Virus record (IMG/VR): IMGVR_UViG_3300005518_000029
Location: 1 to 35,030 of that record
Length of the DNA stretch: 35,030 nucleotides
From: a virus
Reading direction: 5' to 3' (one strand)
Both the position numbers and the translations under genes were made by a program. Position 1 is the first letter of the stretch; every line of letters begins with the position of its first letter. Positions 4,756 through 34,216 of the stretch are shown here, in pieces. The notes under the pieces are model-generated. The model was given only the letters and a program-made list of their open reading frames with translations, was not told where the DNA came from and made no database searches.

Positions 4756-5691
4756 GTGGCTAGTGTGACTTATTCCCGGTTCGCTTCGGCGCGCCCTGGA
4801 GCTGTGGCGTATGCCTGCACGAAGCTCGGGTTCCGCGTGTTCCCGCTGCGTGTCGACACCGGGACGCCGGTCTTCACCGAGTGGCCAGAGCGTGCGACGA
4901 GGGACTTCGAACAGATTCAAGGTTGGTGGACGGGCAACTACGCGCCGTGCGGCGTCGGGATCGCCACCGGACCGGAGTCGGGTATCTGGGTGCTCGACAT
5001 CGACATGAAGCACGGGATCGACGGCTTCGCCAGCCTGCGCGACCTCACGCACCGGCACGGCGGCACGGTCGACGAATTCACGCGCACCATGTGCGTGCGG
5101 ACGCCCAGCGGCGGAGCGCACCTGTACTTCCGATGGAACGAGGCAGCCGACGCCGAAGGCGGCGTGCGCAATGAGTCGTCGGGGAAGATCGGCGCGGGGA
5201 TCGACGTGCGCGGCATCCGTGGGTACGTCCGGGCTCCCGAGGTCGGCGCGTACCGAATCGTCGAGCGAGCGGGGAAGCGATTGCTGCACGTTGCCGACGC
5301 GCCCGATTGGCTCGTGCCGCTGTGCAAGAAGCGCCGGGCGACCACCGTCGAGCCCATGACGAACGCGGACATCCGCGCACGCATGTCCGATCGCGGGCAG
5401 GCGTGGGCGAAGTTCGAAGCGGCCGAGAGCGTGCGGAAGTTGGCACGTTCGGCGGCCGGTACGAGGAACGACATGCTCAACCGGACGGCGTACCGTCTCG
5501 GTACGCTTGCAGCTCTATACGGCGAACCGTCTGAGGCGGATGCCCGCGCGTGGTGCTTCAAAGCAATGCGCCACGCCGGAGCGAACGACACGGCCGAGCA
5601 GCAGATGCGGACCTTCACATCCGGTTGGGAATCCGGTCGGGCAGCGCAGACGACGAAAGTCGCCGATCACGCTCCCGTCCGTGAAACGTAG
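4756..5691 (+). CDS. Prim-pol type DNA primase (bifunctional primase/polymerase N-terminal family), 311 aa
   Basis: Makes replication primers as an AEP-superfamily (prim-pol) enzyme. The catalytic acidic pair is WVLDIDMKHG (D81, D83). The conserved TPSGGAHLYF block supplies His122, and GIDVRGIRGYVRAPEV (D150) is the third hallmark block. This order and spacing are diagnostic. The C-terminal 100 residues are helical, in the position of a PriCT-like linker. The start is a GTG 10 bases after AAGGGA; the nearby ATG (4754) runs into a stop. The D5-like helicase follows 16 bases downstream, so the two form the usual phage/plasmid primase-helicase pair, split over two genes. The polymerase is on the opposite strand to the left. 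Confidence 0.93.
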   Translation: MASVTYSRFASARPGAVAYACTKLGFRVFPLRVDTGTPVFTEWPERATRDFEQIQGWWTGNYAPCGVGIATGPESGIWVLDIDMKHGIDGFASLRDLTHRHGGTVDEFTRTMCVRTPSGGAHLYFRWNEAADAEGGVRNESSGKIGAGIDVRGIRGYVRAPEVGAYRIVERAGKRLLHVADAPDWLVPLCKKRRATTVEPMTNADIRARMSDRGQAWAKFEAAESVRKLARSAAGTRNDMLNRTAYRLGTLAALYGEPSEADARAWCFKAMRHAGANDTAEQQMRTFTSGWESGRAAQTTKVADHAPVRET

Positions 5692-5707: not shown

Positions 5708-7321
5708 ATGATCGACGACCAGACAGATAACCCTGAAACCGACCCTAGCACGCCCGAAACGGACGACTTCGCCGCGAGTATCGTCGGCGGCATCACCGGA
5801 GCACGGGAACGCGTTGACGAGACCATGCCGGACGCCACGGCCGTCGTCGACCTTGATCAGGCATACCGGTTCCTGCCCGAGAGCGTTGCGCTTGACGAGC
5901 CGGTGCCCGGACCGAAAGAGCCGGACAAGGTCGCGCGGTTCCTCTTGTACCTCTTCGCGGACGCCGGGATTCACCTGAAGCACTGGCGAGACGAGTGGTA
6001 TCTGTACCGCGAAGGCGAGACGGGTGGCGCGTATCTGCGCATGGGCGGCGCGGACAACCGCTATGCCGTCGCCGACGCCGTGCGAACGCTGCTCGCCGAC
6101 GCCTCGTACATGCAGGCGACGAAAGACGGCATGGAGCCGCGCCCGTGGAGCCCGAACACGTCAAGTGTGCGAGAAGTGACGGAAGCGATGGCGTCGCAGA
6201 TGCGCATGAGGGAATCGATGGAAGTTCCCGCGTGGTTGCGCCGGTCGGAGCAATCCGAGACGATGCCCGGCGACGAGATCACCTGTGTGCGAAACGGCTT
6301 GCTGTGGTGCCCGCGCGAAGGCGGAACGGCGGCACGCACGCTCGTCGACCACACCCCGGCGTTCTTCACGGATACGGCCGTGGCCGTGGCGTACGAGCCC
6401 GACGCGCGGTGCGACCGGTGGCTGAAGTTCCTCGATGAGCTGTGGCCGGGCGACGAGGACTCGCACGCGCTCTTGCAAGAGTGGTTCGGGTACGTGCTCG
6501 CGGGCTCGACGGGACTGCACAAGATCATGACGCTCGTCGGCCCGCGCCGCTCGGGTAAGAGCACGATCGCGTGGGTACTTGAGCAGTTGCTCGGCGGGAC
6601 GGGACAAGTCGACCACCCGACGATGGCGCGGCTCGCCGAGCCCTTCGGGCTCGCGCCCATGCTCGGGAAGCGCCTCGCGATCGTCGGGGATGCGCGTATC
6701 GGCAAGTCCGACCCCGCCATCGTCGAGAAGCTGCTCATGATCTCAGGTGAGGACCCGGTGACCGTGAACCGGAAGAACCGGGATGAATTGAACGTCAAGC
6801 TCGGCGCGCGGCTCATGATCGTCTCGAACGACATGCCCGACCTTCGCGACTCGACGGGCGCGCTCGCGTCGCGGTTCCTGCCGCTGCGCATCCGCGTCGA
6901 AGGGTTCCTAGGCCGTGAGGACTTCAACCTGAAGCGGACGCTGCAAGACGAGCTGCCGGGCATCTTCACATGGGCGCTGGACGGCGCGGACCGGCTGTGG
7001 GACCGGGAAGGCCGGTTCACCATCGGCGAGAGCGTCGCGGCGTCGATGGAAGACGTCGAGCGGTCGGCGAGCCCGATCAAGGCGTTCGCCTCCGACTGCC
7101 TCGTGATGGACATGTCGCCCGAAGCCATGTCGCCGAAAGACAGCGTGTACGAGGCTTACACGCTGTGGTGCGCGAGCGAGGGGTACATGGCGAAGGGGAA
7201 GAACGTCTTCTTCCGCGACCTGCTCGCGGCGTACCCGGGGCAGCTCGAAGGCTCGCGTACGCGCATCGACGGTCGTCAAGTCCAAGTGCTTCGCGGCGCG
7301 CGTCTCAGCTCCGAAATCTGA
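5708..7321 (+). CDS. D5-like SF3 replicative helicase (phage/plasmid primase C-terminal family), 537 aa
   Basis: AAA+ superfamily 3 helicase that unwinds DNA and probably melts the origin. Residues about 75-250 hold the D5_N-like region (FLDELWPGDEDSHALLQEWFGYVL). Walker A is GPRRSGKS (278-285), the Walker B region is GKRLAIVGDAR (320-330), motif C/sensor is IVSND (N374), and an arginine-finger candidate is SRF (R389). The first 60 residues are acidic and probably disordered. The ATG at 5708 is chosen for the leader-like AAAGGGACGAAAAGCG before it. The gene is immediately followed by the iteron array at 7344-7641, which fits an initiator/helicase next to its origin. Confidence 0.93.
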   Translation: MIDDQTDNPETDPSTPETDDFAASIVGGITGARERVDETMPDATAVVDLDQAYRFLPESVALDEPVPGPKEPDKVARFLLYLFADAGIHLKHWRDEWYLYREGETGGAYLRMGGADNRYAVADAVRTLLADASYMQATKDGMEPRPWSPNTSSVREVTEAMASQMRMRESMEVPAWLRRSEQSETMPGDEITCVRNGLLWCPREGGTAARTLVDHTPAFFTDTAVAVAYEPDARCDRWLKFLDELWPGDEDSHALLQEWFGYVLAGSTGLHKIMTLVGPRRSGKSTIAWVLEQLLGGTGQVDHPTMARLAEPFGLAPMLGKRLAIVGDARIGKSDPAIVEKLLMISGEDPVTVNRKNRDELNVKLGARLMIVSNDMPDLRDSTGALASRFLPLRIRVEGFLGREDFNLKRTLQDELPGIFTWALDGADRLWDREGRFTIGESVAASMEDVERSASPIKAFASDCLVMDMSPEAMSPKDSVYEAYTLWCASEGYMAKGKNVFFRDLLAAYPGQLEGSRTRIDGRQVQVLRGARLSSEI

Positions 7322-7342
7322 TTACGGAGAGTGACAATTTTG
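7321..7342 (+). repeat. Left copy of a direct repeat flanking the iteron array
   Basis: TTACGGAGAGTGACAATTT resembles TTACGGAACGTGACATT at about 7656-7672 (shared pattern TTACGGAnnGTGACAnTT). The two copies bracket the iteron region in the same orientation. This may be a boundary element of the origin or a chance similarity. Confidence 0.45.
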
Positions 7343-7343
7343 C

Positions 7344-7641
7344 TGTGCAGGGATCGAAGGCCGATCCCTGCACAGCGATCCCTGCACAGCTACTTCGGGT
7401 GATGTCCTAGTCACTCGGTATGTTATCTGAACGTGATGTGTGCAGGGATGTGTGCAGGGATCGTGTGCAGGGATGCGTGCAGGGTTCAACGGCCCTCTGA
7501 GCTGCGATGTGCAGGGATTGCAGGGATTATCCTGATCTCTTATGTGAGAATCAATAAATTAGAACATATGTAGTACAACATAGAATGTAGAACTGAAAAT
7601 GCAACCGATCCCTGCACACCTTGCACGGCGACCCCTGCACG
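7344..7641 (+). repeat. Iteron array, candidate replication origin
   Basis: Eleven copies of a 12-mer (TGTGCAGGGATC with few changes). Direct copies begin at 7344, 7439, 7451, 7464, 7476, 7508 and (partial) 7518. Inverted copies begin at 7363, 7377, 7607 and 7630. Copies 7439-7487 are spaced by 12-13 bases, about one helical turn or a little more. Copies 7344 and 7363 form a perfect 14-bp inverted repeat with an AAGGC loop. Between the main array and the right-hand inverted copies lies an AT-rich core (about 7530-7605) in an otherwise GC-rich genome. It contains no supported gene and lies directly after the primase and helicase genes. Iterons plus AT-rich core beside an SF3 helicase is the classic layout of an initiator-bound origin; the function is inferred. 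Confidence 0.8.
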
Positions 7642-7655
7642 GCCCCAAAAATCGG

Positions 7656-7677
7656 TTACGGAACGTGACATTCGAGA
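7656..7677 (+). repeat. Right copy of the direct repeat flanking the iteron array
   Basis: TTACGGAACGTGACATTCG, similar to the copy at 7321. It ends just before the ATG at 7687 and includes no clear Shine-Dalgarno other than GAGGTGAC at 7676-7683. Confidence 0.4.
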
Positions 7678-7686
7678 GGTGACGAG

Positions 7687-8220
7687 ATGGACGACGAGAG
7701 CGACCCGACATACGAGCTTGCGCGGCGGCCGTGGTCGGGCGAACTGAACGTGAACCCATGGGATGCGATCTTGGGGGAGGTGCGGCGCAGCGCGTACCGG
7801 GCAGCGTGGATCGATGAGCGCGTGCAGCTCGAAGCGCACCGGGAACGGACGCTCATCGACTCGGACGGCGTCGACTTCGAGAAGGCGAGCGATTACGAGA
7901 TTGCCGTGCGGCTGCGCGGGCAGGAGCTGCGCGAGTGGATTCGCGAAAGCCGCGACGAGCGCAAGCACATGACGAAGGTTGCCGCCGACGCGGTGCGCGC
8001 TGGGCTCTCTGAGCGATACATCGATTCTCTGCGCGCTGAAGCGCAGATGATCGCTCGTGCGCTCACGAAGGCGCTCGACGCCGCCGATCTCGACGCTACG
8101 CAGCGCGCGCGGGCGAGCGAGGCGCTGCGCGAAGCGCTCGCCGAGATGGGTCCGATTCTCGCGCAGCGGCAAGACAGCATGGCGGGCACGGTAGCCGTAC
8201 GGCCAGAGATCGGCCGTTAA
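7687..8220 (+). CDS. Probable terminase small subunit-like protein, 177 aa
   Basis: Almost fully helical protein. The segment NPWDAILGEVRRSAYRAAWIDERV (residues about 25-50), then EWIRESRDERKHMTKVAADAVRAG and a C-terminal helical bundle, follows the pattern I associate with small-terminase-like proteins of actinobacterial phages and prophages. These bind the packaging start site. Family assignment rests on that remembered pattern, not on a visible catalytic motif. RBS GAGGTGACGAG precedes the ATG. The location is unusual: next to the iteron origin and about 11 kb from the large terminase. An origin-binding accessory role is the main alternative. Confidence 0.5.
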   Translation: MDDESDPTYELARRPWSGELNVNPWDAILGEVRRSAYRAAWIDERVQLEAHRERTLIDSDGVDFEKASDYEIAVRLRGQELREWIRESRDERKHMTKVAADAVRAGLSERYIDSLRAEAQMIARALTKALDAADLDATQRARASEALREALAEMGPILAQRQDSMAGTVAVRPEIGR

Positions 8221-23203: not shown

Positions 23204-23558
23204 TGCGGTACTCTTCGCGGTGCTCGCGCTCGCCTGCTACCGCGTGACGCGCTTCGTCGTGAAGGACACGATCGCGGAACCGGTCTTCGGACGGCTTCGC
23301 GAACGGCTCGAAGAACGGTGGATCGCCAAGCACGCAGGCGACGACGAGAACTTGAAGTATCTCTTCGAGCAGACTGTTCACTTCAATTCGAAGCTGGCGT
23401 ACATGCTCTCGTGCCCGTGGTGCCTTGGATTTTGGGTATCCGGAGCGGGATCGTTGCTAGTATCGGAGGCGTACGGGCTCGATTACCTTATGTTCGCGCT
23501 GCTGTGGCTCGCGACGTCGACCATTGTCGGCTTGATCGGGCGCATCGATTCAGACTAG
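23196..23558 (+). CDS. DUF1360-family membrane protein, 120 aa
   Basis: Starts MHDAVLFAVLALACYRVTRF, the LACYRVTR signature of DUF1360, and has LSCPWCLGFWVS (CPxCLGxW) near residues 71-81. Two or three hydrophobic spans. In phages this gene is commonly close to the lysis cassette, and it may act as a second holin-like or envelope protein; the exact role is unproven. It overlaps the holin gene by 8 bases, suggesting coupled translation. Confidence 0.8.
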   Translation: MHDAVLFAVLALACYRVTRFVVKDTIAEPVFGRLRERLEERWIAKHAGDDENLKYLFEQTVHFNSKLAYMLSCPWCLGFWVSGAGSLLVSEAYGLDYLMFALLWLATSTIVGLIGRIDSD

Positions 23559-23566
23559 GGGCGACC

Positions 23567-25009
23567 ATGCGTCTTCCGGCGTTCAACAGTGTGACGGCGT
23601 CTGCTGCCGTCATTCCGCCACGCCGGATGCATGATCCCGAGTACACGAGCGAGCAAGACCAACTTTGGGACTACTACCAGCGGCTCGAAGAATTCTCGGC
23701 AGCGGTGAACTGGAAGGCGAACGCGATCAGCCGCGTTCGGCTCATCGCTGCCGAGTTCATGCCGGGAGGCGACGAACCGATTCCGATCACGGAAGGGCCG
23801 ATCGCTGATCTCGTTGCCGAGTTCGCCGGAGGCATCGGCGGCCAGTCGCAGATTCTCGGCGAGACCGCCATTCACCTGAACGTGCCCGGCGAAGGCTGGC
23901 TATGCGGCGTCGAAGACATCTTCGGCGAGCGCACGTGGAAGGTGTATAGCGCTGACGAGTTGCGGATTCGCAACGGAGAGTATCAGATTCGGACGGGCGA
24001 AAGCTCGCGCGCATGGGAATCACTCCCCGTCGATACGCTCGTCGTGCGCTTTTGGCGTCCGCATCCCCGCTGGGGGTGGCGAGCGACCTCGCGCGCAGCA
24101 TACGCGCTTGGCGCGATGAAGGAACTTGACCTCATCAATCGCCGCATCATCGCTGAGACCATCTCGCGCATGGCTGCGAACGGCGTGATCCTGTACGACC
24201 GTGGGAAGCTGAGCTTCCCCGACCTTCCGACTCCGGTGAGCGCCGAGTCGGTCGACCCCTTCGCGCAACTGCTCGTCGATGTCGGCTCGAAAGGTGTCGC
24301 CGACCCGACGAGTGCGCAGGCAACCATTAAGATTCCGATCGGCGCTGATCTCGGCGATTCGGACGTCAAGATTTCCGACCTCATTCACGTGATCGATCTG
24401 TCGAACCCGTTCTCTGAGCGGATGCTTGATCAGCGAAACGGGGCTGTGACACGCCTTGCGACAGCGCTCGACATCCCGGCCGAGCAGTTGACGGGGCTCG
24501 GCGATATGACGCACTGGGGCGCGGCACAGATCGAAGAGTCGGGCATCAAAGTGCACATCACGCCCGACATGGAAATGATCTGCCACGCCTTCACGGAAGG
24601 GTTCCTGTACCCGACGCTGGAAGCTGAGGGGCGCGCGCTCACCGGACCTCGGGGCGGTAAAGCGGTTATCTGGTATGACCCAAGTGAAATCGTCATGCGG
24701 CCCGACCGGTCGAAAGAGGCCATCGAAGCCTACGACCGAGGCGAGCTGTCCGGCCCTGCGTTCTTGCGTGAGCTTGGTTTCTCGGAAACCGACCAGCCGG
24801 ACGAAGAGGAACTTGCACGGATCATCGAACTGAAGCGGCAACTCACGGTAACCAATCAGGTACCTACAACGCCGGACGATAACCGAAACGACACAGCCGT
24901 CGACACAGCGAATCCCGACCCCACTGAGGCACAGACGGATATCGAAGATATGCCAGTCGACATCACTGAGCGTGCACGTCGCCTGCTGACGGGGGTGGAC
25001 CGTGGCTGA
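23567..25009 (+). CDS. Portal protein, 480 aa
   Basis: Forms the dodecameric head portal through which DNA passes. SPP1/HK97-class signs: WDYYQRLEEFSAAVNWKANAI near the start, AIHLNVPGEGW, a RFWRPHPRWGW segment, and the helical clip/wing region with RNGAVTRLATALDIPAEQLT, typical of actinophage portals. The C-terminus is acidic and disordered. ATG at 23567 with AGGGGCGACC before it. The stop overlaps the start of the next gene by 8 bases. Order and neighbours (terminase upstream, MuF-protease downstream) support the call. Confidence 0.9.
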   Translation: MRLPAFNSVTASAAVIPPRRMHDPEYTSEQDQLWDYYQRLEEFSAAVNWKANAISRVRLIAAEFMPGGDEPIPITEGPIADLVAEFAGGIGGQSQILGETAIHLNVPGEGWLCGVEDIFGERTWKVYSADELRIRNGEYQIRTGESSRAWESLPVDTLVVRFWRPHPRWGWRATSRAAYALGAMKELDLINRRIIAETISRMAANGVILYDRGKLSFPDLPTPVSAESVDPFAQLLVDVGSKGVADPTSAQATIKIPIGADLGDSDVKISDLIHVIDLSNPFSERMLDQRNGAVTRLATALDIPAEQLTGLGDMTHWGAAQIEESGIKVHITPDMEMICHAFTEGFLYPTLEAEGRALTGPRGGKAVIWYDPSEIVMRPDRSKEAIEAYDRGELSGPAFLRELGFSETDQPDEEELARIIELKRQLTVTNQVPTTPDDNRNDTAVDTANPDPTEAQTDIEDMPVDITERARRLLTGVDRG

Positions 25010-27374
25010 ACTCGAACCGCAGTCCATCGAAGAACTCGAAGCAGCATCCGAAGAATACGAAGCGCTTATTGCGGCCGGACTCGTGCTAGTTGTTGCGGCA
25101 GCGGCCGAAGAAATCGAACACAACAACTTGTCGACACTGTCGACGGCCGTCGTCGACATCATCACAACGCTGTGGAATGAGTATGTCGACGCGAAACTGA
25201 TTCCAGCGCTCACGGTGTCGATGTCGATTGCGAGCGAGGACGCCGCACGTGCCTTGAGCAGTGCACTGGGCGATCTGCCGTTCTTGAACGAACCGCTCGA
25301 CACGCAGCTCTATCTTGCGCAGGCAAAGAATCGGCTCGTCGGCATCGGCAATGAGTTGTGGTTCAACGCGCGCACAGAGATCGCGGCAGGGCTCGCCGCC
25401 GGTGAGGACATTCCGACGATTGCGCAGCGCGTACGCGAGGCGGCCGGAGTCACGGAGCCGCGCGCGCGCGTGATCGCACGTACGGAGTCGCATGGCGCGC
25501 GCAACACCGTGAACGCCGCGAGCGTACGCCGCGCCGCAAGCGCTTTCGGCAGTGCTGACGCGTTCTCGCGACGTTGGCAGGCGGCCGAGGACGCCCGCAC
25601 GCGTCCGACGCACGTCGATGCAGACGGGCAGACGGTCGGCCTAAACGAGCCCTTCACGGTCGGTGGCGCGTCGCTCGACTTCCCCGGCGACCCGGCCGGA
25701 CCACCGGGCGAAGTGATCAACTGTCGGTGCACGACGATCACGATCATCGACGTCGATGCGCTCAACACCGCGTCGACCGGCACCGTAACCCTGAACGCCG
25801 CTGCTTACCGGATTGAGGACACTGAAATGCCGTGGTCGATTGTCGAAGGCGACGAGCGTTGCGACGCTGGTGAGTTCGCCGTCGTGAAGGACGCAGATAA
25901 CGAACTTGCAGGCTGCCACGCGACACGCGACGAAGCTGAGGCGCAGGTGGCGGCGCTCTACGCCTCCGAAGCCGCAGATGGCGCAGACGCCGCCATGCCT
26001 GCCGCGATGCGCAACACGGTGCCGTGGTCGGGTGTGCTCGTCGTCGAAGGAACGCCGACCGGTGACGGCCGACAGTTCGCAGCGGGCGCACTCACGTGGC
26101 CCCAGCTCGGCGACACAGCATCGCTTGAAATTCCACTCGGATGGATGTACGAGCGAGCACATGGCGGGATGGCTACCGACAAGGTCGTGAACGTCGGACG
26201 CATCGACACGATCACGCGCGTCGGCAATGAACTACACGGCACCGGCGTGATCAACCTGGATACCGAATGGGGGCGGCGTGCGGCCGAGCAGATGGGCACG
26301 CGTGAAGACCCTGGATTCCTCGCAGGTGTTTCGATCGACGCTGATGATCCCGAAGATCCGCAGGGATTGAACGTCGAGTACGTCTTTCCGGACTCGTGTG
26401 CACTCGAAGAGGCACCGGACGATGCCGGAACGCTGCTCGATGACAACGATGGGCCCGACATGGCGTGCATGATCCCCGAAATGGTCGTGTACCACTCCGG
26501 ACGCATCCGCGCTGCGACGCTCGTCGACATCCCGGCGTACGTCGAAGCGCGGCTCTATCTCGACCAGCCGGTGCCGGAAGGTATGCCGGTTGACGTCGAA
26601 CCCATCGACATGCCGGTGACTGCTTCGTCGTTCGTGATGGAGATTCCCGATCTTCCGCCTACAGCGTGGTTCGACGAGCCCGCCGATGAGCCTGAGATCG
26701 GTGCGATCACGGTCACGGACGAAGGCCGGATCTTCGGGTACCTCGCACCGAAGCACGTCGCCCACCGGGGTATCCGGGACAAGCGCGTCACGGTGCCGAT
26801 GGGCAATGTTGACTACGGGATCTGGATGAACCGTGTCACGCTCGCCGACGACGGCAAAGGCGGATACGCACGCGTGGCTACCGGTCCGATCACGATGGAC
26901 TGCGGCCACGCTGTAGCGTCTCCTCGCGTCGTCGGTGCGGCTCGCCGCGAACACTACGACAATTCGTGCTCGATCGTCGCCACGGTTCGTGTCGGCGAGA
27001 ATTCACGCGGCGTGTGGATCGCGGGCGCGGTGCTGCCAGACGTGACGCCTGACCAGATTCGCCGGATGATGGCCTGCCAGCTTTCGGGCGACTGGGGGCC
27101 GCACCGTGAGAAGCCGGGTAAGCGTGAGCTGGCCGGTGCGCTGCTCGTGCCGGTGCCGGGCTTCCCGAAGCGCTCGAATGCCTTCATGAGCATGAAGGCC
27201 GGGCAGCTCGAACACGTCACGGTGCCGGTGCGGTTCGGCCGTATCGTCGAGCCACAGACGTTGAGTTTCAACGCCGACGCCGCCGCCGAACGCATCGCGG
27301 CATCGATCGGACGCGACCGCGCGTCGCGCGTACACAGCTTCGCTGCGCACCTCGCAGCGGGAAAGGTGAACTGA
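25002..27374 (+). CDS. MuF-like head protein fused to capsid maturation protease, 790 aa
   Basis: GTG start inside the portal end. Residues about 1-250 are MuF/head-morphogenesis-like: ARVIARTESHGARNTVN, then RPTHVDADGQTVGLNEPFTV and VINCRCTT. A GEFAVVKDADNELAGCHATR spacer follows. Residues about 340-520 form a prohead-protease-like domain (WSGVLVVEGTPTGDGRQFAA, AHGGMATDKVVNVGRID, FLAGVSID). The C-terminal 200 residues are a further beta domain (ITVTDEGRIFGYLAPKHVAH, YGIWMNRVT, DCGHAVASP, LSGDWGPH, VPVPGFPKRSN) that recurs in actinophage maturation proteins. It is probably made as a fusion and cleaved during head assembly. Protease active-site residues were not pinned down. Confidence 0.85.
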   Translation: MAELEPQSIEELEAASEEYEALIAAGLVLVVAAAAEEIEHNNLSTLSTAVVDIITTLWNEYVDAKLIPALTVSMSIASEDAARALSSALGDLPFLNEPLDTQLYLAQAKNRLVGIGNELWFNARTEIAAGLAAGEDIPTIAQRVREAAGVTEPRARVIARTESHGARNTVNAASVRRAASAFGSADAFSRRWQAAEDARTRPTHVDADGQTVGLNEPFTVGGASLDFPGDPAGPPGEVINCRCTTITIIDVDALNTASTGTVTLNAAAYRIEDTEMPWSIVEGDERCDAGEFAVVKDADNELAGCHATRDEAEAQVAALYASEAADGADAAMPAAMRNTVPWSGVLVVEGTPTGDGRQFAAGALTWPQLGDTASLEIPLGWMYERAHGGMATDKVVNVGRIDTITRVGNELHGTGVINLDTEWGRRAAEQMGTREDPGFLAGVSIDADDPEDPQGLNVEYVFPDSCALEEAPDDAGTLLDDNDGPDMACMIPEMVVYHSGRIRAATLVDIPAYVEARLYLDQPVPEGMPVDVEPIDMPVTASSFVMEIPDLPPTAWFDEPADEPEIGAITVTDEGRIFGYLAPKHVAHRGIRDKRVTVPMGNVDYGIWMNRVTLADDGKGGYARVATGPITMDCGHAVASPRVVGAARREHYDNSCSIVATVRVGENSRGVWIAGAVLPDVTPDQIRRMMACQLSGDWGPHREKPGKRELAGALLVPVPGFPKRSNAFMSMKAGQLEHVTVPVRFGRIVEPQTLSFNADAAAERIAASIGRDRASRVHSFAAHLAAGKVN

Positions 27375-29462: not shown

Positions 29463-30359
29463 GTGGCACGCGGACGACTCTTGATCAGCAGCGGAACGCT
29501 GCCGTTCACCGCACCGCAGTTCGATCTGCTGTCGACGGCGACGCAGCTCGATCTGCCGGATGCCCATTGGCGCATGGGGATCACATGGGAACCGCTCTGC
29601 CCTGAGTCGAGCGGCACCTATGATCCCTGCACAGCCATCGTCGAGAACGCCGGGGAAGTGGAGCAGGCTCCCGAACCACCGGCGAAATCGGCCACGACCG
29701 CATGGCAGACGCGTGCAGCGACTGCCTTCACGGCATACTCGCGTATCGACTGCTCGCCAGTGGGGCAGTGGGACCAACTTTCCGAAGTGAATCAGCAGGC
29801 GCTGCTGCGCTCCGAAGCGCGGTTCGTCGAAACGGCGTTTTGGTCCGGCGCTGTCGCCGGGCAGACGGTTGTGTTCCCGCATCTTGCGGCAGACACGGAA
29901 GTGACGGACGGTGGCGACCTACTGCAACCGGCCGCAACCGTTGTGACGACGACGGCGCAAGAGATCGCGATCGGCATCGGAATGCTCGAAGATGCGATGC
30001 GGGACTGCTACCCCGGTGTCGCAACGATCCATATGCCGATTCGTCTCGCGGCACTGGCTTCCATGCACGACCTCATTGAGGCGCGGGCAGGCCGGATGTT
30101 CACGAAGATCGGTTCGAAAGTCGTCGTCGGCGACTATCCGGGAACCGCTCCGGACGGCTCGACGACGCCCGTAGGCACCACTTGGATGTACGCCACCGGG
30201 GAAGTGTTCTACTCCCGGGAGCGGACACCTACGCGGTTCAGCGTCGCCGAGTCGTTCGATCGTGATGTGAACACGGTCGAAGTGATCGCCGAACGTACGT
30301 ATGTGCTCGGTTGGGACTGCTGCCTATTCGCCATCCCGATTCTGAACGGAGAACTGTAA
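29463..30359 (+). CDS. Putative virion structural protein, 298 aa
   Basis: GTG start with a very good RBS (GGGAGGTGAACGGTA). The protein follows the capsid gene directly, and its pattern (AVVFPHLAADTEVTDGGDLL-type region, then EIAIGIGMLEDAMRDCYPGV, IHMPIRLAALASMH, TTWMYATGEVFYSRERTPTR) recurs in actinophage virion genes. It may be a head-tail joining or second capsid-fold protein; no motif settles it. An upstream N-terminal Pro/Glu-rich linker is present. Several Cys residues occur, as in its neighbours. Confidence 0.65.
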   Translation: MARGRLLISSGTLPFTAPQFDLLSTATQLDLPDAHWRMGITWEPLCPESSGTYDPCTAIVENAGEVEQAPEPPAKSATTAWQTRAATAFTAYSRIDCSPVGQWDQLSEVNQQALLRSEARFVETAFWSGAVAGQTVVFPHLAADTEVTDGGDLLQPAATVVTTTAQEIAIGIGMLEDAMRDCYPGVATIHMPIRLAALASMHDLIEARAGRMFTKIGSKVVVGDYPGTAPDGSTTPVGTTWMYATGEVFYSRERTPTRFSVAESFDRDVNTVEVIAERTYVLGWDCCLFAIPILNGEL

Positions 30360-32206: not shown

Positions 32207-32833
32207 ATGATGACATTCGATGAACTCGCCGCACTTGACGGCTTGATCTCGCGCGACGTCGGCGAGCTGCTGTATAGCTTCGCCGCGCTCGTACCCGCCA
32301 ATCAGGCCATCGTCGAACTCGGCTCGTATCGCGGCAAGTCGACCTGCTATCTCGCGACCGGCGCAGCGCTCGACCATCACGCGCCCGTGTACGCCGTCGA
32401 TGCGTGGTCGGAAGAAGTCTCGGCGTGGCGCGCCGCCGTGCTCTCGACGCTCCCGAGCCCCGCCTTCGAAGACTTCACGGCACAGCTCGACAAGGCCGGA
32501 GTGAGCGACGGCGTACACGTCATTCGGTCGCTGACGACGCTCGCGGCCGAGCTGTACGACGGGCCACCGGTCGGCTTGCTCTACATCGACGGCGATCACA
32601 ACCGCGCAGCCGTGCTCGCCGACTTCCGCGCATGGCGGCGGCACCTCGCGCCTGATGCCGTGATCATCTTCGATGATTTCGGCGTCACGAAGAACCCCGG
32701 CGTCTCGCTCGCGGTCGGCGATCTCGAAGCCTCCGGCGAGCTGATCGACATCGACAAGCTCAAGAGCGAACGGCTCGCTATCGCTCACGCGGGCGACGTC
32801 GTCGGCGCACGGAAGCCGGGAGTCACGAAGTGA
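32207..32833 (+). CDS. SAM-dependent methyltransferase (Methyltransf_24 type), 208 aa
   Basis: Class I Rossmann methyltransferase. Motif I IVELGSYRGKSTCYLA (about residues 40-55) and PVYAVDAWSEE, then GLLYIDGDHNRAAVLADF (acidic DGDH, metal/substrate type) and DAVIIFDDFG. It resembles sugar and nucleoside O-methyltransferases of phage and surface-glycan clusters. Start at 32207 or the next ATG (32210). Its end overlaps the next gene by GTGA, so the two methyltransferases are co-translated. Confidence 0.88.
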   Translation: MMTFDELAALDGLISRDVGELLYSFAALVPANQAIVELGSYRGKSTCYLATGAALDHHAPVYAVDAWSEEVSAWRAAVLSTLPSPAFEDFTAQLDKAGVSDGVHVIRSLTTLAAELYDGPPVGLLYIDGDHNRAAVLADFRAWRRHLAPDAVIIFDDFGVTKNPGVSLAVGDLEASGELIDIDKLKSERLAIAHAGDVVGARKPGVTK

Positions 32834-33441
32834 AGCAGATCGAATACACACCGGCCGGGTACTGGGAACGTCGCTACCGCGACGGCCGCACTTCCGGCGC
32901 AGGCTCCGAAGGCGACGAAGGCGCGTATAAGGCGGCGTACCTCTCCGACTTCATCGCCGAGCACGACGTGCAGAGCGTCGTCGACTGGGGGTGCGGCGAC
33001 GGGCAGGTACTCGACCTCGTCGAGCTGCACGATGCTCAGTACATCGGGATCGACGTCTCATCGACGATCGTGACGCGAATGCGCGAAAGGTTCGAAGGTC
33101 CGCGCTATCTATTTCACACGGCTGAAGCATTCACGTCGGTCACGTGGCGGCCGTTCGATCTCGCGCTCAGCTTCGACGTGCTCTTTCACTTCCCCGATGA
33201 AGCTGATTACTTCGCGTATCTGTACAACCTCTTCGGCAGCGCCGAGAAGTACGTGATGATTTACGCGACGAACTACGCAGGCGGCCGGACGGCTCGCCAT
33301 GTCTTCCGGCGCGAGTTCACGCCGGATATCGCCGAACGGTTCCCGGAATGGGAACTGACGACCGTCGAGACGCCGCTGCGCGAAGGTCTCGCCTCGTTCT
33401 TCGTGTATGAGAAGGTGCAGGATGCCGCGACTCTCGGTTAA
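32830..33441 (+). CDS. Class I SAM-dependent methyltransferase, 203 aa
   Basis: GTG start in a GTGA overlap. Motif I VVDWGCGDGQVLDL (about residues 53-66), then YIGIDVSSTIV (acidic ribose-binding loop) and DLALSFDVLFHFPDEADYF (motif IV-like). It resembles small sugar or lipid methyltransferases. Its 3' end overlaps the next gene's start by 20 bases. Together with its neighbours it forms a glycan-modification cassette. Confidence 0.88.
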   Translation: MKQIEYTPAGYWERRYRDGRTSGAGSEGDEGAYKAAYLSDFIAEHDVQSVVDWGCGDGQVLDLVELHDAQYIGIDVSSTIVTRMRERFEGPRYLFHTAEAFTSVTWRPFDLALSFDVLFHFPDEADYFAYLYNLFGSAEKYVMIYATNYAGGRTARHVFRREFTPDIAERFPEWELTTVETPLREGLASFFVYEKVQDAATLG

Positions 33442-34216
33442 GATCATGGCGCACTCGAAGCGTGCGCACCTCGTGCCTGAACTCGTCGAACGACTTGGGC
33501 TGACGGACGACGATGTGATCTGGGATCGCCGTAACAACCGATGGGACACCGGCCGTCGTGCATGGGAAGCGATCGATCAGACGGCCGACTGGGGGATGGT
33601 CGTACAGGACGACGCACTGCCGTGCGCCGACTTCATTGCAGGCATGGAAAAGGCGCTCGAACGCGTCCCGACGAACGTACTCGTATCCCCGTACATTGGC
33701 ACGCGTCGACCGTCACGAGGCAAGATCGAGCGCGTCGTGCAAGAGGCCGCAGCGGCGAAGGCGGCATTCATCGAAATGCCGTCCCTGAATTGGGGAGTAG
33801 CGATCACTGCGCCGACACGCATCATCGACGGGATGCTGCCGTGGTGCGACGTGCAGAACTACCCAAACTATGACCGGCGCATCGGCCGCTATGCAATCGA
33901 CGTGCTGCGTATGGGCACATGGTGCACCTTCCCGAGCCTCGTCGACCACCGGGACATCCCCTCCCTGGTCGGACACGGGGATGGTCGGGTTGCGCACCAC
34001 TTCATCGGCGAATCCACGTCCGCACTTTCGGTAGACTGGGATGCGGGAACGGTGCGCATGAGCGCGTCACGGACGGTCGCCCGGTACACGGGCGGTCACA
34101 CCGACACACCGGGACCCTACGGCACACGTGGCTATCACGTCGCTCGCAAACTTCGCGTACCGAAGCAGGGGCGCGGCGGGGATGTCGTGCCAGAGCGGCC
34201 GGAAGGGTTGGATTAG
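33422..34216 (+). CDS. Putative glycosyltransferase (GT-A-like), 264 aa
   Basis: Starts MPRLSVKIMAHSKRAHLVPE, then GMVVQDDALPCADFIAGMEK, whose QDDAL is a DxD-like GT-A motif (about residues 62-66), and SPYIGTRRPSRGKIE and LNWGVAITAPTRIID, patterns of phage GT2/GT25-type glycosyltransferases. ATG at 33422 overlaps the previous gene, with GAAGG before it. The very C-terminus is basic and Pro/Gly-rich. Acceptor unknown; virion protein is the likeliest by context. Confidence 0.7.
   Translation: MPRLSVKIMAHSKRAHLVPELVERLGLTDDDVIWDRRNNRWDTGRRAWEAIDQTADWGMVVQDDALPCADFIAGMEKALERVPTNVLVSPYIGTRRPSRGKIERVVQEAAAAKAAFIEMPSLNWGVAITAPTRIIDGMLPWCDVQNYPNYDRRIGRYAIDVLRMGTWCTFPSLVDHRDIPSLVGHGDGRVAHHFIGESTSALSVDWDAGTVRMSASRTVARYTGGHTDTPGPYGTRGYHVARKLRVPKQGRGGDVVPERPEGLD

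Follow-up and report, generated by a model that had tools for sequence, protein, structure and literature searches.

The DNA analysed here (the window) is a virus record of 35,030 bp that carries terminase, portal, major capsid and endolysin genes. Three relatives with repeated ends, which are probably circular assemblies, reach 60.7-63.1 kb, so the window is probably a fragment. A prim-pol gene (4756..5691, + strand) encodes an archaeo-eukaryotic primase-polymerase of 311 aa (Pfam Prim-Pol PF09250, E 1e-28), and is followed by a gene for a 537-aa helicase of the SF3/D5 type (5708..7321, + strand), with DUF5906, Pox_D5 and D5_N domains. In alignments with relatives, the ATG at 5708 was a more suitable start for the helicase than the mechanically chosen TTG at 5507. 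By profile, the protein matched PDB entry 7ola (E 7e-11), which we take to be SaPI5 Rep. Next comes an intergenic region of 365 bp (7322..7686), a gap that is conserved at 345-365 bp in 9/9 family members, and then an ORF starting at 7687, the sole match of which is a PHROG without known function. No Rfam match or tRNA was found in the window. Elsewhere, adjacent genes resembling a DNA methyltransferase, a methyltransferase and a glucosyltransferase (32207-34216) possibly serve DNA modification, and a single 790-aa ORF (25002-27374) has matches to families of portal, head morphogenesis and head maturation protease proteins, and is preceded by another, separate portal match at 23318-25009.

The 365-bp gap between the helicase gene and the 7687 ORF contains a repeat array, in agreement with an earlier note on this DNA, which had placed the repeats right after the primase-helicase pair. 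The array comprises 11 copies of TGCAGGG, in both orientations, around an AT-rich core. Allowing up to 2 mismatches to TGTGCAGGGAT, there are exactly 11 sites within 7344-7641, 8 of which are exact 11-mers. The note had counted eleven copies of a 12-mer; the count and the two orientations stand, but the repeat is better named an 11-mer because base 12 varies. Exact copies occur on the + strand at 7344..7354 (iteron 1, which begins 22 bp past the helicase stop codon), 7439..7449, 7451..7461, 7464..7474 and 7508..7518 (iterons 4, 5, 6 and 8), and on the - strand at 7364..7374, 7378..7388 and 7608..7618 (iterons 2, 3 and 10). The other three carry 2 mismatches each: iteron 7 (CGTGCAGGGTT; 7476..7486, +), iteron 9 (ATTGCAGGGAT; 7517..7527, +), which overlaps iteron 8, and iteron 11 (CGTGCAGGGGT; 7631..7641, -). 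A decayed twelfth iteron (7620..7630, -), with the aligned copy CCGTGCAAGG, is better preserved in some relatives. Thus, nine copies lie to the left of the core, and two plus the decayed one to the right, with an orientation that switches across the core and is mostly opposite on its two sides. The partial spacing of 12-13 bases described earlier was found at 7439-7476, as intervals of 12, 13 and 12. The array is real and far beyond chance. Indeed, the whole window contains 21 matches to TGTGCAGGGAT at up to 2 mismatches, where 7.0 were expected and none of 100 shuffles gave more than 14, and 12 matches to TGCAGGGRT, compared with 0.31 expected, 10 of the 12 falling within the array. One isolated exact 11-mer copy lies far from the array, at 29623-29633.

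The core itself (7528..7607), at which the iteron orientation flips, is the proposed unwinding element. Its AT content is 68%, against 38% for the record, which bears out the earlier description of an AT-rich core in a GC-rich phage. Within it, a AATTAGAACATATGTA block (7557..7572, +) is conserved and a TGAAAATGCAA block (7594..7604, +) invariant in 9/9 family members; conservation of these blocks and of ATAGAAT extends to all, or almost all, of the nine sequences. Iterons 1 and 2 (7344+/7364-) form an inverted pair (7342..7376) with arms at 7342-7356 and 7362-7376 and a 5-nt loop. The perfect 14-bp hairpin previously claimed at 7344/7363 is therefore present, but is slightly longer than reported, at 15 bp.

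The earlier note had named absence of the array from relatives as grounds for refutation. A search with the helicase found 10 viral contigs, two of which stop short of the site; 8/8 of those that cover it keep the array in this position, and the order, orientation and spacing of its copies hardly differ. When two close 11-mer copies were used as a query against 2.9 million viral contigs, six contigs were returned, all of them already in the helicase set, and a nucleotide search of a phage collection with the array region gave no near relative. The family layout is + - - followed by four to six + copies on the left, a core of ~80-90 bp, and two or three - copies on the right. The opposed pair is also kept, spaced 18-20 wherever its copies are detectable, with both arms altered in one relative (L012, discussed below).

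The hairpin raises the question of whether function resides in the stem-loop and not in the iterons, as the pRN1/BPP-1 model of prim-pol/SF3 replicons would have it. pRN1 requires its 3' stem-loop (PMC4234260), the 15-bp hairpin is present here, and the single strand of the region folds better than every shuffle (z -5.9). We nevertheless regard this explanation as very unlikely, since the hairpin is merely two opposed iterons, iterons without a nearby hairpin partner are conserved as well as the pair that has one, and several arrays elsewhere start with direct, not opposed, repeats.

Those other arrays came from a survey of 152 loci in genome and viral contigs, which were found with a broader helicase alignment; a scan of genome contigs with a single helicase protein gave no matches. 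An array was defined as at least 5 copies of one 8-mer, and the automatic choice of reading frame may be wrong for a few loci in the counts that follow. Arrays were present within 700 bp after the helicase in 59 of the 152 loci, compared with 3/152 in the last 700 bp of the helicase and 0/139 further down. Among 135 non-redundant loci, 46 (34%) had an array in the 350-bp bin directly after the helicase, whereas every other such bin across about +/-2.8 kb had one in 0-3 loci (0-2%). About two thirds of the surveyed loci have no exact-8-mer array 3' of the helicase, which suggests short gaps, degenerate iterons or another origin. Each array-bearing lineage has its own iteron. In 50 arrays, a count that includes some close relatives, the largest gap had a median of 85.5 bp, orientation flipped across it in 45, and its AT content exceeded that of the locus in 45.

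Among annotated homologs, the helicase gene is followed by an array in a Streptomyces virginiae plasmid (11 copies of TGTTCAGGG), in Mycobacterium phage Patt (AGGGACATG), whose gene is for a primase-helicase, in a Pseudonocardia plasmid that carries a terminase gene (GGGCCCCGC-type) and, ahead of terminase genes, in Marinobacter phage PS6 and phiTHAF39 (GGGACA-type). A sister viral group (L195-L199, IMG/VR contigs), with 65% helicase core identity, shares the layout with the iteron CTTGCAGGGAT. The gap in Streptococcus phage Javan531 looks similar by eye and is marginal by count. Homologs with a short 3' gap and no array were found in a Bradyrhizobium plasmid, two Vibrio phages, Arthrobacter phage Nitro and Streptomyces phage TP1604. 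A Planctomycetaceae contig (L120) has a run of ACCTCGTG at 418-640 bp past the helicase stop, with 15 copies in one direction and mostly at 14-bp intervals, a tandem array unlike the origin arrays.

What adjoins these arrays bears on three further explanations. Operator arrays exist, the array described here is intergenic, and a helicase bound at its own 3' region could also regulate; the array might thus be an operator through which a repressor, or the helicase itself, controls downstream genes or the replication operon. However, the genes after the array vary (an integrase in L062, the terminase region in L038/L064, the ORF of unknown function in the window) whereas the helicase stays the same, no + strand promoter stands out in the array region, which has one weak site on the - strand, and two opposed sets flanking an AT-rich core are the anatomy of an origin. 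An operator is thus improbable. Repeat-bearing pac and cosB sites also exist, and the position of the Marinobacter phage PS6 and phiTHAF39 arrays ahead of terminase genes would fit a packaging site recognised by a small terminase, possibly the product of the 7687 ORF. The earlier note had likewise offered a terminase-like protein as a possible binder. This proposal did not hold up: no terminase match was found for the 7687 product, and the gene downstream of the array in L012 shows no private changes comparable to those described below, and thus none that match the change in its iterons. Moreover, the large terminase gene lies 11 kb from the array, and in the Streptomyces plasmid the array adjoins an integrase gene, not a terminase. 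A packaging role therefore appears highly improbable. The presence of related arrays in plasmids, including the terminase-bearing one of Pseudonocardia, could instead point to a parS-like centromere for partition of an extrachromosomal prophage. We give this almost no credence, since array placement follows the helicase gene rather than partition genes, and the window proteins scanned (a subset of ORFs) gave no ParB family match.

GC skew was examined in the three circular relatives. Close to where the prim-pol gene begins, 2.8-3.1 kb upstream of the array, the cumulative skew reaches its minimum, and its maximum lies ~37 kb away (block-permutation p 0.002, 0.035 and <0.0005). The minimum is thus ~3 kb off the array itself, at which the earlier note had suggested looking for a skew flip. 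This pattern is compatible with an origin in the region, although it is imprecise and possibly reflects coding bias.

If the array is an origin, the helicase encoded immediately upstream is a candidate for the protein that reads it. Since the model of the full-length helicase was poor (pLDDT 43), we used the C-terminal domain alone (residues 440-537; 7025..7318, +), for which AlphaFold2 gave a pLDDT of 86.6. In VIA-align, the predicted model of these last 98 residues matched the RFX DNA-binding domains 8zjr (Z 10.3) and 1dp7 (Z 10.1) and the origin-binding domain of phage P4, 1ka8 (Z 8.7, rmsd 2.3, 78 aligned), followed by the C-terminal regions of AsfvPrimPol; as these matches rest on a predicted model, they indicate fold, not function. 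RFX1 reads its site largely via a beta-hairpin wing. We infer that the domain is an RFX-like/P4-type winged helix and a putative iteron binder, with a wing segment at residues 513-533 (7244-7306, +).

A natural variant, L012, is consistent with such a role. Its iterons have changed together at all aligned positions: ~11/12 have CC where others have CA, such that TGTGCA has become TGTKCC, with T at the preceding variable base in most copies. The L012 helicase is 90% identical to that of the window and has six private substitutions, at positions that are invariant in the rest of the family; four of them (R517K, Q524L, Q526P and L533I) lie in residues 513-533. The hypergeometric probability of this clustering is 1.5e-5 for 513-533, a region picked post hoc, and 9e-5 for the whole domain. 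The earlier suggestion that the helicase binds the repeats thus gains support from the predicted fold and from this co-change. A second relative, L014, has mostly GGGGT iteron ends and V525R as its sole private C-terminal change. In contrast, the iteron core of L009 is unaltered although five private substitutions fall within the C-terminal domain of its helicase (p 0.0025), so such changes need not mean altered specificity.

Iteron similarity followed wing similarity when helicase core similarity was allowed for (partial Mantel r 0.27, 0/2000 permutations). The converse also held: with the wing allowed for, iteron similarity could be predicted from that of the helicase core (r 0.25), so the effect of common descent has been only partly eliminated. 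At residue 526, in an iteron register picked after seeing the data, Q goes with CAGGG (the window family, the S. virginiae plasmid and L154) and P with CCGGG (L012, L205 and L211); T526 and R526 have no single iteron answer. A general rule would be that D5/SF3 helicases, whether of phages, plasmids or chromosomal elements, each have an origin of their own 3' of the gene, and that the wing of the RFX-type winged helix determines the iteron through a code that can be read; this is accordingly a tentative idea that we think may well be wrong. If it were true, the initiator and the origin of an uncharacterised element could be paired from their sequences. L012 makes the specificity of wing for iteron directly testable.

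Taken together, the array is very probably the origin of phage replication and resembles those of SaPI/PICI and P4 in type; its iterons would be read by the C-terminal winged helix of the upstream helicase. We read it as an origin because two opposed iteron sets around an AT-rich core are origin anatomy, and the earlier iteron-origin interpretation is supported, at the level of sequence, by conservation in relatives and placement beside the helicase. The predicted fold and the co-change suggest that the helicase recognises the iterons with its RFX/P4-type winged helix. By analogy with SaPI/PICI/SCCmec and P4, helicase hexamers would assemble on both iteron sets in opposite orientations, melt the ~80-bp AT-rich core and then translocate outward, and the neighbouring prim-pol would prime synthesis. 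Since the helicase would recognise iterons just 3' of its own gene, helicase gene and cognate origin may form one transferable module. Origins are unknown for most phages, and a PICI-type layout adjoins this helicase type in many phages, plasmids and bacterial genomes.

The earlier note cited lambda and P4 as precedents. The likeness to P4 holds, but the closest system is not lambda; it is the SaPI/PICI-type origin, which the note had missed. That origin lies directly 3' of rep, with two iteron sets around an AT-rich region, and a plasmid test showed that replication depends on both (PMC6092414). Each SaPI/PICI Rep has its own cognate iterons (PMC6092414, PMC7581432), which in SaPI are recognised by the C-terminal domain of Rep (PMC7581432). 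Similarly, our array is immediately 3' of the helicase gene in all relatives, with enrichment only there in 135 loci, and its two iteron sets flank a core that is 68% AT; for binding by the helicase C-terminal domain, the predicted winged helix and the co-change of wing and iteron in L012 are indirect indications. Unlike the SaPI/PICI case, the iteron is TGTGCAGGGAT and the phage family is one of ~60-kb tailed phages with their own terminase, portal and capsid genes, in which prim-pol and helicase are separate genes. A PICI is a small helper-dependent satellite island, whereas the circular relatives are 60.7-63.1 kb and structural genes are present here; on size and gene content, therefore, the element is not a PICI.

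SCCmec Cch2 is also a D5-type helicase; it binds to direct repeats that follow its gene (PMC7581432), but SCCmec has three iterons only and a different primase (CCPol-MP). P4 alpha likewise combines an SF3 helicase with a C-terminal winged-helix origin-binding domain, 1ka8, which the predicted domain matches; its primase is fused to the helicase, whereas prim-pol is a separate gene here (4756-5691). The P4 primase is of another type, and the repeat sequence and origin layout differ from our array. The P4 alpha protein binds repeats, and for prim-pol/SF3 phages a stem-loop origin was proposed earlier (PMC4234260). pRN1 and BPP-1 share prim-pol, SF3 helicase and winged helix, and an origin 3' of the gene, but they have all domains in one protein and a stem-loop in place of an iteron array (PMC4234260). 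The pRN1-type stem-loop is ~100 nt and iteron-free, whereas here iterons are present and the 35-nt hairpin is built from two of them.

As an origin, then, the array belongs to an already known kind. In 2018, the PICI authors described the layout as unique to PICIs and found in no other known bacterial replicon; against that statement, its range across full-size tailed phages, plasmids and other elements may be new, within the open-access literature that we searched and allowing that earlier reports, for example of streptococcal phage origins, may exist. The natural variant that links wing and iteron, L012, is new.
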